A program made the position numbers and the translations under genes. DNA of 43,129 bases from an uncultured Bacteroidaceae bacterium (GTDB lineage: Bacteria; Bacteroidota; Bacteroidia; Bacteroidales; Bacteroidaceae), in contig CAJOLI010000006.1 in NCBI GenBank assembly GCA_905235285.1, positions 1-43,129 of the forward strand, read 5' to 3'. The notes under the pieces are model-generated. The model did no database searches. It was given only the letters and a program-made list of their open reading frames with translations, and was not told where the DNA came from. Below, piece after piece: positions 2,829 through 42,882 of this stretch. Position 1 is the stretch's first letter. Each line of letters opens with the position of its first letter.

Positions 2829-3155
2829 ATGGTTGACGTAACAAATGCCAAGTCCCAGATGCGCAAGGGGATGCTGGAGTACTGCATCCTGTTGCTGCTG
2901 AAGCGGCAACCAGCTTACGCCTCCGACATCATTCAGCAGCTGAAAGAAGCTGAGCTGCTGGTGGTCGAAGGTACGCTGTACCCGCTGCTGACGCGTCTGA
3001 AGAAGGACGGCCTGCTCGCCTATGAATGGCAGGAGAGCACCCAAGGGCCGCCCCGCAAGTACTATGAACTGACCCCGCTCGGACAGCAGTTTCTCGATGA
3101 ACTCGACAAGGCGTGGGGCGAAATTTCTAACACCGTTAATTATTTGAAGAAATGA
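2829..3155 (+). CDS. PadR family transcriptional regulator
   Basis: 108 residues forming a PadR winged-helix domain: the opening helix (QMRKGMLEYCILLLL), the DNA-binding region (AYASDIIQQLKEAE, then VEGTLYPLLTRLKKDG) and the wing motif PPRKYYELTPLG. PadR proteins are usually local repressors that respond to ligands or envelope stress. The ATG at 2829 was preferred to an in-frame ATG at 2775, because the extra 18 residues are a hydrophobic translation of repeat DNA and family members begin close to this Met. Its TGA overlaps the ATG of the large PspC gene (ATGA), indicating translational coupling, so it probably regulates this PspC unit. Confidence 0.92.
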   Translation: MVDVTNAKSQMRKGMLEYCILLLLKRQPAYASDIIQQLKEAELLVVEGTLYPLLTRLKKDGLLAYEWQESTQGPPRKYYELTPLGQQFLDELDKAWGEISNTVNYLKK

Positions 3156-5053
3156 AAAAGAATATTACCATCAACCTTTGTGGGCGCCTCTTTGCCATCG
3201 ACGAGGATGCCTATGAGATGCTTGCCACCTACGAGCAGTCGCTCCGTAACTATTTCCGTACGCGTGAGGGCGGCGAGGAGATAGCCGAGGACCTGGAAGC
3301 GCGCATCGCCGAGCTCTTCGATGAACTGAAAGCACAGGGTGTCGAGGCAATAACTATAGATCACGTGCGCGAGGTCATCCATCGGATTGGGAGGCCGGAA
3401 GAGATGGAAGGAGATGAGGCCCCCTCTTCAGCCCCCGAGGGGGCTACGGATGCTTCGTCTTCTGCCAACAATGGAACAGGAGCCCCCTCGGGGGCCGCAG
3501 AGGGGGCCACCTCTAAGCGCCTCTACCGCAACCTCGATGACAAGAAGCTGATGGGCGTGCTCTCCGGCTTCGCTGCTTGCTTTGGTGGCGACGTGCTGTG
3601 GTGGCGCTTAGGCTATGCCGCTATTGTGCTGCTGTCGTTTACCGGCTCGTCGTACAACTTCCTGTGGTTCCTGCCTCATCAATACCTCTATTTCCGCATC
3701 TATTTCTGGGGCATCGCCCTCCTCATCGCCTACGTCCTCCTTGCCGTGCTGATGCCTGTGGCCGAGACACCCGAGGACCGGTTGCGCATGAAAGGTAAGG
3801 AGGTGAATCCGCAGAATCTGGCGGAGGAGATAAGTCTCACCTCCGACCCCACTCCCAAGGAGAGGGGAGCATATACATCAGAGGATAAAGGGGGTGCTGG
3901 AGACAATTGTAATCACACCCATCCCCGAGGAGGGGGTGGGGGTGAGGTCAAGCATCGCGGCCCCTCTGGTTGCCTTGGTTGCATCGGCGGCTTCTTCGTA
4001 GCCCTGTGGACAGTCATCTCGACCCTCTTCCGTTGGTGCATCTATGCTTTCGGGGGCTTCCTTGCTGCCATGTGCCTCATCGGCATTGTCTGCCTGACGG
4101 CTTTTGCTGTGAATCCTTTTGATTTTCTAAAGGAAGGCGACAGCTTCTTCCGGACAGAGGAATTTGCAGCGCTGGTCCCTTCGTTGACTGTTCCTTTCTA
4201 CATCTTCGTGATAGCTGCAGGAATCGTCCTTGCCATCACGGCCTACGCTCTCATCCACAGCGTCTTGAACGAGTTCAAGCAGATGCCCTCCATGCCCTAT
4301 CGTCAGCGCATCGCCTTGCTCGTGATGTGGATTGCCGGACTGGCTGTGGCAGGCGCTGCTATAGGTTATGGCTTCCCAAAACTCATCAAGGCGTCGGAGG
4401 AGTATAATAGGCAAGAGTGGCAAAAACACGATGCACGTGAGCGTGTCGAGAACACGCACGATGGCATCTATGTCCAGCACCATGAATGGGTATTCCTGCA
4501 AGCCAATGGTTGGAAGGTTATGAATGGCGAGGGCTGTAATGACCGCTTCACTGCTTATGGCGAGCATCTGTCGGGCGACGATGATGTCCGTTACCTTGAT
4601 TGCTACGATGACAACCACCGCCAGCGCTACCGCGTAGAGCGGACTGACACCCTCTACCCCGGAACTTATCGCCTCACGTGTGCAGCCCGTGCCAACAGCA
4701 CCGGAGCTTGCATCTATGCCATCATTGGCAATCAGAAGCCTCAGTTCGTGGAGATTCCTGCCACAGGCAACACGGGAGGTGACATCTGGGTGGAGGCCGA
4801 CAAGTTCGTACATTACCACAAGGACGTTCCAATTCCATCGGACTCTGTCGCTTACGGCAATCAGCAATGCGAATTGGTTGAGGCCAACGACCATAAAGGC
4901 TTCGGCTGGAACCGCATCGCCTTCGAGCCTATCCGCATCACTGCTCCCACCGTCATCCGCTACGGCCTCACCTCCGACAACGCTTTCACCGGCAAGACCT
5001 GGCTCGGACAGTGGTTCTCCGCCACCGACTTCGAGGTCAGCCGTGTGGAGTGA
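3152..5053 (+). CDS. Large multi-TM PspC domain protein
   Basis: 633 residues. Residues 1-90 are the N-terminal domain found in Bacteroidetes PspC proteins (NLCGRLFAIDEDAYEML; EDLEARIAELFDEL). A low-complexity linker follows, then a PspC domain (about 125-205, RLYRNLDDKKLMGVLSG) and further TM segments around 277-316, 340-370 and 390-415. The C-terminal 215 residues are probably extracytoplasmic. The role is inferred to be envelope-stress sensing with the partner PadR, which overlaps it by 4 bp. Two linkers are odd: 3418-3508 and 3836-3946 are palindromic GC-rich repeats translated in frame (Ala/Ser/Gly-rich and Gly/His/Pro-rich stretches). They fall between domains and do not break the frame. 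Confidence 0.88.
   Translation: MKKNITINLCGRLFAIDEDAYEMLATYEQSLRNYFRTREGGEEIAEDLEARIAELFDELKAQGVEAITIDHVREVIHRIGRPEEMEGDEAPSSAPEGATDASSSANNGTGAPSGAAEGATSKRLYRNLDDKKLMGVLSGFAACFGGDVLWWRLGYAAIVLLSFTGSSYNFLWFLPHQYLYFRIYFWGIALLIAYVLLAVLMPVAETPEDRLRMKGKEVNPQNLAEEISLTSDPTPKERGAYTSEDKGGAGDNCNHTHPRGGGGGEVKHRGPSGCLGCIGGFFVALWTVISTLFRWCIYAFGGFLAAMCLIGIVCLTAFAVNPFDFLKEGDSFFRTEEFAALVPSLTVPFYIFVIAAGIVLAITAYALIHSVLNEFKQMPSMPYRQRIALLVMWIAGLAVAGAAIGYGFPKLIKASEEYNRQEWQKHDARERVENTHDGIYVQHHEWVFLQANGWKVMNGEGCNDRFTAYGEHLSGDDDVRYLDCYDDNHRQRYRVERTDTLYPGTYRLTCAARANSTGACIYAIIGNQKPQFVEIPATGNTGGDIWVEADKFVHYHKDVPIPSDSVAYGNQQCELVEANDHKGFGWNRIAFEPIRITAPTVIRYGLTSDNAFTGKTWLGQWFSATDFEVSRVE
3418..3508. repeat. In-frame palindromic element in pspC (1)
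   Basis: 28-bp arms at 3418-3445 and 3481-3508 are inverted copies matching at 26 of 28 positions by my alignment, around a 35-bp centre. Core words are AGCCCCCTCGGGGG and its complement. The element is translated as the linker between the N-terminal and PspC domains. Confidence 0.8.
3836..3946. repeat. In-frame palindromic element in pspC (2)
   Basis: An inverted pair opens with CTCACC at 3836 and closes with GGTGAG at 3946, with C-rich and G-rich arms that pair imperfectly. The span of 111 bp is 37 codons, so the frame is kept. Its translation is a Gly/His/Pro-rich linker in a cytosolic or periplasmic loop. Confidence 0.6.
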
Positions 5054-6162: not shown

Positions 6163-6200
6163 ACGAATTATACGCGCTCGGTCGAGCGCGTATAATTCGT
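6163..6200. repeat. 38-bp perfect palindrome
   Basis: The 18-nt arm ACGAATTATACGCGCTCG (6163-6180) is repeated as its exact reverse complement at 6183-6200 with a 2-nt spacer. It lies between the converging HlyD-like remnant and the S9 peptidase gene. Neither side has a T-run, so it is not a canonical intrinsic terminator; a protein-binding site or cruciform is possible. Confidence 0.85.
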
Positions 6201-28239: not shown

Positions 28240-28270
28240 TTTGTCGTTCACGCGGCTTTGTGTAACTTTG
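28240..28270 (+). promoter_or_regulatory. Promoter of the rlmN-DUF4837 unit
   Basis: TTTG (28240-28243), 19 bp, TAACTTTG (28263-28270): an exact match to the Bacteroidetes consensus. Transcription would start near 28276, about 97 nt before rlmN. Confidence 0.75.
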
Positions 28271-28315
28271 CGGCGCAGTAGGCTCCATCGCAGGCGATGG
28301 TATCTGCTGCGCCGC
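28270..28315. other. Two-tier stem-loop overlapping the rlmN promoter
   Basis: The outer stem GCGGCGCAG (28270-28278) / CTGCGCCGC (28307-28315) encloses an inner stem CCATCGC (28285-28291) / GCGATGG (28294-28300). The outer left arm touches the -7 box, so it might end the Bax inhibitor transcript, fold in read-through RNA, or act as a DNA site. No T-run follows. Confidence 0.55.
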
Positions 28316-28372
28316 AATTAAGTTATTAAATGTACGCGCGTGCGAGATAGACAACGCCACGTAGCATCAGAT

Positions 28373-42433: not shown

Positions 42434-42575
42434 ATTATTGCTGTCCGCTAAAAATCATTGGTGCTTTCGGCAATCATTAATTCCTCGGACAGTCGTTGAC
42501 ACTCCTTAGGGGGCTTGTCTGATGCTAAAAGCCGTAAATTTAGGCACAAAAGTACGTTTAGCGGACAGTAATAAT
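42434..42575. mobile_element. MITE-like element with 19-bp terminal inverted repeats
   Basis: ATTATTGCTGTCCGCTAAA (42434-42452) and TTTAGCGGACAGTAATAAT (42557-42575) are inverted copies with one mismatch in 19. The 142-bp span has no ORF, so it is either a miniature element or the collapsed remnant of an insertion sequence. No target duplication is evident. An identical left end lies alone at 6013-6032. Confidence 0.7.
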
Positions 42576-42752: not shown

Positions 42753-42766
42753 TATGGTAGGAAAAA

Positions 42767-42822
42767 GACATGTGCGATAGAAACGAAACAAAATATTTTG
42801 TTTTATTTCTACCGCACATGTC
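42767..42822. repeat. 56-bp near-perfect palindrome
   Basis: The palindrome is centred between 42794 and 42795, with 25 of 28 base pairs matching by my count. Arms begin GACATGTGCG and end CGCACATGTC; the centre is AAACAAAATATTTTGTTT. It is between convergent genes and lacks a flanking T-run, though the AT-rich centre could nucleate a cruciform. Confidence 0.85.
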
Positions 42823-42882
42823 ATTACACGGGAATGCTGATATTGAAAAAACGGATTACATTTTTGTTGAGTGAAAGCAAAT

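Follow-up and report, generated by a model that had tools for sequence, protein, structure and literature searches.

A dispersed palindromic repeat read in frame inside conserved genes of Bacteroidales, and its possible kinship with palindrome-flanked DUF559 nuclease genes

The window considered here, that is, the whole stretch of 43,129 nucleotides that was analysed, carries on its forward strand a gene (3152..5053) that was recognized from the list of open reading frames and from Pfam as encoding a PspC-domain protein of 633 residues, and that lies downstream of two further genes, one for a PadR-type regulator and one for a small PspC protein. The Pfam PspC domain occupies residues 122-203 (3515..3760, forward strand), and a further match in the same protein, to LiaI-LiaF-TM_PspC, falls just under the Pfam cut-off. 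Directly before the PspC domain lies a palindromic repeat of 91 bp, here termed element A (3418..3508, forward strand), which is translated in frame as residues 90-119 (APSSAPEGATDASSSANNGTGAPSGAAEGA). The first-pass annotation of this DNA had described an in-frame linker between the N-terminal and PspC domains, whose ends are reverse-complementary over 26 of 28 positions; direct reading of the sequence bore out both points. The arm at 3418-3445, GGCCCCCTCTTCAGCCCCCGAGGGGGCT, pairs to that extent with 3481-3508, and among the inverted repeats listed for the window this pair is the longest. A second in-frame palindromic insert, weaker and assigned to a family B, occupies linker 2 of the same gene (approximately 3836..3947, forward strand); on contig C94 of the same genome a remnant of a DUF559 gene is flanked by two family-B arms, which the left part of this insert matches at 83% and 88%. 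Another family-B half element, PTKVYTPLSLGEGSGVRLLLS, apparently in an open coding frame, was seen at positions 1369-1413 of locus L010 (G000:C143).

Several other inverted repeats were observed in the window, including a perfect 18-bp repeat with a 2-nt loop at 6163-6200 (ACGAATTATACGCGCTCG), a GC-rich 24-bp repeat (83%) adjoining an AT-rich stretch at 28268-28317, and, near the window's end (42434-42575 and 42764-42825), a 19-bp inverted repeat whose halves are separated by 104 nt, followed by a 33-nt palindrome (88%).

The earlier contention that so long an inverted repeat is not to be expected from protein coding agrees with synonymous-codon shuffles of the pspC gene (n=60, with protein and codon usage kept), in which the best 28-bp inverted repeat reached at most 23 matched positions versus the real 26. 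Folding of the RNA, which the same annotation had recommended, gave a z-score of -6.75, and none of 200 shuffles was as stable. Comparison of 21 copies then indicated which pairings are conserved. Each arm of element A holds a hairpin of its own (GCCCCCGAGGGGGC at 3431..3444 on the left and GCCCCCTCGGGGGC at 3482..3495 on the right), the two being separated by a variable spacer (3446..3481) and enclosed by an outer 8-bp stem in which 3418..3425 pairs with 3501..3508, all on the forward strand. Across the 21 copies this outer stem and the two local hairpins hold, with pairing in 94.7% of cells; the pair that closes the left hairpin covaries (GC in 12, UA in 8, CG in 1, broken in none), and under the alternative long-arm pairing these columns are disrupted in 9 and 10 copies. 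On these counts a single 28-bp cruciform is not favoured as the conserved structure over the outer stem with two local hairpins. The compensating changes within the hairpins alter the encoded peptide, for example from S-A-P-E-G-A to S-S-P-E-G-D, which argues that the hairpin is kept by DNA or RNA structure and not by the protein. Element A has the form that characterizes REP/BIME repeats, namely a pair of REP-like hairpins in opposite orientation, and the motif GTAG follows the right hairpin in most A1 copies, but runs into the outer stem. In one queA-like gene (L024, positions 1045-1306, genome G010) the right half of the element was found tandemly repeated several times, in frame.

The element is not confined to the pspC gene. 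Two further full copies, on contigs C13 (86%) and C62 (81%) and both read as intergenic, were found in the window's own genome (2.76 Mb, 153 contigs, 84.6% complete); when 101 genomes of the genus were searched at the DNA level, 16 gave matches, and a covariance model built from 21 copies detected the element in 26 of 139 genus genomes at E<=1e-6, with as many as 30 matches per genome when both strands are counted and at least 19 distinct places in one genome (G119). When the hairpin-pair pattern was searched over GTDB representatives, at least 119 stretches were recovered; the 80 of these that were listed are all titled Prevotella, Prevotellaceae, Bacteroidaceae or Bacteroidales, and among the matches listed many titles point to samples from the rumen or from other ruminant stomachs.

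Nearly all of the copies are presumably translated. Among those scoring at least 45 bits in eight genomes, 53 of 55 lie within long open reading frames, the exceptions being the two intergenic copies of the window's own genome. The typical encoded peptide is APHSAPEGAT…EAPSGAVGGA; the forward orientation yields AP.SAPEGAT..EAPSGA..GA, and the reverse orientation, adopted by about a fifth of copies, yields AP.TAPEGAS..APSGA..GA. Four partly degenerate copies of the 55 (L073, L079, L080 and L095) follow the usual phase over part of their length only, and in two copies (ClpB L106 and L090) a longer open frame exists in another phase, with the Pfam domains lying in the usual one. A Pfam family was found in 49 of the 50 open reading frames scanned (a set comprising neither L022 nor L095, with the window's gene scanned separately); that of L016 lies wholly downstream of the element, and L017 has none. 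The host genes include clpB, purL, prfC, pyrG, valS, ileS, mutS2 and gcvPB. Pfam profiles span the insert in ClpB (AAA_2), PurL (GATase_5), RF3 (GTP_EFTU), ValRS, IleRS and CobT, and the NCBIfam equivalog cut-offs are passed despite the insert by ClpB, PurL, RF3, CTP synthase, ValRS, IleRS, MutS2, GcvPB and CobT.

The preference for a single phase was also evident in sites chosen by their DNA pattern alone. In a sample of 97 hairpin-pair sites, drawn from the first 80 pattern loci and three further genomes (with some genome overlap with the 55-copy sample, and after removal of duplicates and of 10 hairpin pairs near locus ends), the longest open reading frame was in the phase GCC|CCC|GAG at 90, where 61.7 would be expected from stop-free frames alone (P ~2e-12); with one site taken per host cluster the count was 67 of 74 versus an expected 47.5 (P ~3e-8). 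The remaining 39 pattern loci, after removal of two edge sites and two duplicates, gave 33 of 36 sites in the usual phase, for a total of 123 of 133. At the other 10 sites the longest frame is in another phase or no frame is in phase; one of these (L256) is a clpB gene for which Pfam backs the usual phase. The hairpin spacing, a multiple of three in nearly all coding copies, obeyed that rule at 89 of 90 and 31 of 33 in-phase sites, and at three of the seven other sites of the first 97.

Orthologues with short, insert-free loops were found. In PurL of genome G040 the element lies between MVELGL and MLHNTS, an interval that comprises fewer than 20 residues in 23 of 31 parsed entries. In RF3 of genome G016 it lies in reverse orientation, and the proteins of other genomes (for example G040, G106 and G120) align at residues 5-91 and 126-330 with a single residue between. 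The same loops are also filled by other palindromes. In four genomes (L162 and L164-L166) PurL carries at that place, in frame, a different and AT-rich palindromic insert (GC 0.28-0.37; P<0.005 versus shuffles), and five of 30 parsed RF3 loops (L379-L382 and L391) are other palindromic inserts of at least 31 residues. Only three of 30 ClpB loops could be parsed, and all are filled, with inserts other than element A in the two besides that of G041; where G041 has element A, the ClpB loop of two other species (L348 and L350) is occupied by different, GC-rich inserts. In another PurL loop, an additional insert of some 40 residues was noted both in the purL gene of the window's own genome (L183) and in G055 (L184). 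The interval that separates the small PspC gene of the window from the PadR-type gene contains AT-rich inverted repeats (2708-2819; 30 nt at 77% and 26 nt at 85%) that may be akin to the AT-rich PurL inserts.

The two linkers of the pspC gene vary in a similar manner. Linker 1 was parsed in 27 of 31 loci (the other four did not fit the pattern used); five carry element A, and in the others this place is taken by different sequences, of which 10 are significantly palindromic and 12 are not at P<0.01. Two of the five element carriers, the diverged family-A copies L114 and L115, are likewise not significantly palindromic at that threshold. Linker 2, parsed in 24 of 31 loci (seven did not fit the pattern), is significantly palindromic in seven, the window's among them, and comprises only 14-15 residues in seven of the 24 (L128-L134). 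The first-pass annotation had set its reading against one in which all orthologues share a homologous linker and the DNA word occurs nowhere else; what was found is a set of orthologues with no universal homologous linker, and a word that recurs in the same genome and across the genus. Its analogy with the outcome of Rickettsia palindromic elements is likewise upheld by in-frame copies in many unrelated conserved proteins and by the insert-free orthologous loops. As for its description of a mobile or spreading palindrome domesticated as a linker, the dispersal, the in-frame copies in unrelated proteins and the insert-free loops all support it, and the mobility is deduced from distribution. Neither transposition nor precise excision of element A was seen, and inspection by eye of the PurL and RF3 loops, which vary much, revealed no target-site duplication. 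The first-pass annotation had anticipated neither the other palindrome families in these loops nor the connection with DUF559 nuclease genes described below. The closest insert-free loops differ in length, and the boundaries of the element are therefore inexact.

A candidate for the agent of this dispersal emerged when the loci were searched for separated family-A arms. Arms 420 bp apart at locus L034 led to a DUF559 gene (two other pairs are 81 and 109 bp apart). In that locus, from genome G094, the arms enclose a 128-codon open reading frame that matches Pfam DUF559 (PF04480) at 2e-33, with 114.9 bits versus a cut-off of 20.6, and whose best solved relative by sequence is 3hrl_A, an ‘Endonuclease-Like Protein’ (E 5e-16); we take DUF559 to belong to the PD-(D/E)XK, Vsr-like fold class. 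Family-A arms also surround a DUF559 gene in G076 (L439), and exact family-A arms were seen to flank DUF559 in only two genomes (L439 and L446); none was present in the best repeat of 16 further DUF559 genes from carrier genomes, with that of L513 being similar. The solo palindrome and the gene-bearing unit thereby have ends in common (L439 and L446 for family A, and the window's own genome for family B), in the manner of MITEs.

Matches to DUF559 occur in 100 of 139 genus genomes, namely in 25 of 26 element carriers versus 75 of 113 non-carriers (P 0.0014, uncorrected for relatedness or genome completeness). At 45 of 48 DUF559 genes the score of the inverted arms exceeded the 99th percentile set by 923 control windows, one of which scored 320, above every DUF559 locus; at two of the three genes below that percentile an arm lies just outside the tested range. 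In a second set, from carrier genomes, the inverted-arm score exceeded 35 at 14 of 16 DUF559 genes (the 16 of 20 loci that have the motif used). A stricter control, with mismatched flanks, was passed, above the 99th percentile, by only 19 of the 48 loci because the arms of different loci are alike. Outside Bacteroidota, three of eight DUF559 loci (two from Deinococcus and one from Qipengyuania) have inverted palindromes that score above all 231 control windows. DUF559 genes with such flanks, inverted and GC-rich, lie on plasmids of Deinococcus and Qipengyuania (L502, L505 and L507).

DUF559 units were themselves found in frame within host proteins. One lies in the middle of MiaB (L483), in a protein that passes the MiaB equivalog cut-off; two lie at a similar site inside an epimerase (L465 and L498), and L465 has another within a Polysacc_synt_C protein. 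Additional units are fused in frame on the N-terminal side of guanylate kinase (Gmk), an amino-acid kinase (AA_kinase), an aconitase-family protein and a semialdehyde dehydrogenase, and on the C-terminal side of GcpE/IspG and a phosphoglycerate mutase; the amino-acid kinase, aconitase-family protein and semialdehyde dehydrogenase are presumably ArgB-like, LeuC-like and ArgC-like, respectively. Peptides encoded by the palindromic arms are present at the fusion junctions, and no splicing domain was detected among the Pfam hits (E<=0.001) of 10 fusions that were scanned. No host site shared by DUF559 units and solo palindromes was found among the loci compared.

These observations show that element A is dispersed, has conserved hairpins and is read in a single phase, and that the orthologous loops may be free of inserts or filled by other palindromes. 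It is likely that element A inserts into genes, that it is a relative of the palindrome–DUF559 unit whose nuclease aids its spread, and that selection acts in tolerant loops. Under such a scheme a dispersed repeat, with its pair of REP-like hairpins closed by an inverted outer stem, would insert into genes, and copies would survive where the insert adds an in-frame loop rich in Ala, Pro, Ser and Gly; in pspC, the result would be a linker that joins the N-terminal part and the PspC domain. The larger unit would consist of the same kind of inverted arms enclosing a gene for a putative DUF559 endonuclease, which may act on hairpins or on nicked DNA such that the arms are copied to new places, and the solo palindromes would then be small, non-autonomous relatives of that mobile unit. 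We infer that insertion proceeds by such a DUF559-linked process, and that selection after insertion would retain copies in tolerant loops whose phase yields a disordered linker. Among the points against this explanation are the many alternative linkers that are not significantly palindromic, the intergenic position of two of the three copies in the window's own genome, and the sighting of exact family-A arms around DUF559 in two genomes only.

A possible, if unlikely, alternative is that DUF559 is a passenger, a homing-type nuclease that invades existing palindromes which themselves spread by other means, such as template switching during replication or some transposase. Such a role is conceivable because the spacers of solo copies are unlike the flanks of DUF559 genes and display no visible derivation from them; furthermore, solo palindromes far outnumber the DUF559 units seen with exact family-A arms, and DUF559 is present in two thirds of the genomes that lack family A (the 75 of 113 noted above). 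Against it, inverted arms tightly enclose most of the genus DUF559 genes examined, in both sets, and three of the eight genes from outside Bacteroidota are flanked in the same way.

That the repeat is instead a selected protein module, a useful linker peptide spread by recombination between genes and palindromic only as a by-product, is improbable. The single translated phase and constant composition are what such a module would produce, but compensatory changes conserve the DNA hairpins while altering the residues, the same loops are filled by other palindromes that may be GC-rich or AT-rich, and the fifth of copies in reverse orientation are difficult to reconcile with it. Slightly less probable still, and very unlikely in our estimation, is mobilization of a REP/BIME family by a RAYT (Y1 tyrosine) transposase, despite the resemblance of the short GC-rich hairpin pair, in opposite orientation, to REP dimers and the precedent of intragenic REPs (described in part of PMC3733652). 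The Y1_Tnp profile scores at least 60 bits in 6 of 26 carriers versus 20 of 113 non-carriers (P 0.58), and at its curated cut-off in 11 of 26 versus 42 of 113 (P 0.66); the window's own genome has one sub-threshold hit, the covariance model returned a single chance-level match (E 0.77) over 26 Y1_Tnp loci, and five of nine inspected loci have paired hairpins of other sequence. With no association with carriers, and no RAYT flanked by a family-A repeat in those 26 loci, RAYT is not supported as the mover of element A. Five Y1_Tnp genes (L407, L408, L410, L429 and L430) possess hairpins of their own (CCAGCC..GGCTGG and CCCAGGG..CCCTGGG), and apparently make up REP systems of their own within the genus. 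That the palindrome is a regulatory RNA hairpin or terminator of the pspC mRNA, or arose by chance, is scarcely credible, for all the stability of the fold, given that the same DNA recurs in unrelated coding sequences and was not reproduced by 60 synonymous shuffles, and its dispersal rules this out as the sole explanation.

Beyond the likely relation between element A and the nuclease unit, we would give an even chance to the broader proposition that these sequences constitute a new class of mobile element, in which a palindrome-bounded DUF559 gene inserts in frame into host genes without splicing, leaving the host enzymes with a nuclease domain, and sheds short palindromes as translated linkers through dozens of rumen Prevotella proteins, possibly with other forms in Deinococcus and in alphaproteobacteria. 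DUF559 is a candidate mover that is open to biochemical testing, and the inserts mark loops of conserved enzymes that tolerate 30 additional residues or a whole nuclease domain.

The best-known examples of in-frame coding palindromes come from Rickettsia, and intragenic REPs have been reported from some other species. The rumen bacteria supply a larger natural experiment, in which loops of the RF3, PurL and PspC type are repeatedly occupied by different palindromes beside insert-free orthologues. Among the matches listed in the open-access literature (PMC), none connects DUF559 with palindromic repeats or reports in-frame palindromes in Prevotella. Intragenic REP dimers encoding 20-30 residues are described in the relevant part of PMC3733652, according to which most REPs are intergenic; element A shares with REP/BIME repeats its short GC-rich hairpins paired in opposite orientation, but is mostly coding (53 of 55 copies) and has no cognate RAYT among the 26 Y1_Tnp loci. 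Like MITEs it is small and apparently non-autonomous, with inverted ends common to a gene-bearing unit; unlike the case with them, no transposase was found for it, nor a target-site duplication in the PurL and RF3 loops inspected by eye. The DUF559 units resemble homing endonuclease elements (inteins and the yeast HO/WHO type, as portrayed in a portion of PMC7282813) in that a nuclease gene lies in or beside conserved host genes that are not destroyed, but differ in the nuclease itself, in the flanking palindromes and in the lack of a splicing domain in the 10 fusions scanned. The coding palindromes of nematomorph mitochondria, as outlined in a section of PMC6649704, are similar as long inverted repeats within coding genes, but belong to animal mitochondria.

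The nearest known system in outcome is that of the Rickettsia palindromic elements, which are depicted in parts of PMC2229807 and PMC10969869 as palindromes of ~100-150 bp that are read in frame as part of unrelated conserved genes, with a guanylate kinase that bears one being active (PMC2229807, in part). Both are palindromes dispersed in many copies of conserved sequence, and both are read in frame in conserved genes of which some orthologues are free of the insert. The likeness is one of outcome, drawn from descriptions of the Rickettsia elements and not from their sequences, and the differences are several: element A comes from Bacteroidales, is 91 bp in length and forms two local hairpins; its copies are nearly all coding and in one phase; the loops that it occupies are used by other palindromes as well; and related arms enclose a nuclease gene. 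Element A may accordingly be a variant of the in-frame palindrome kind, and the DUF559 unit may represent a new class.
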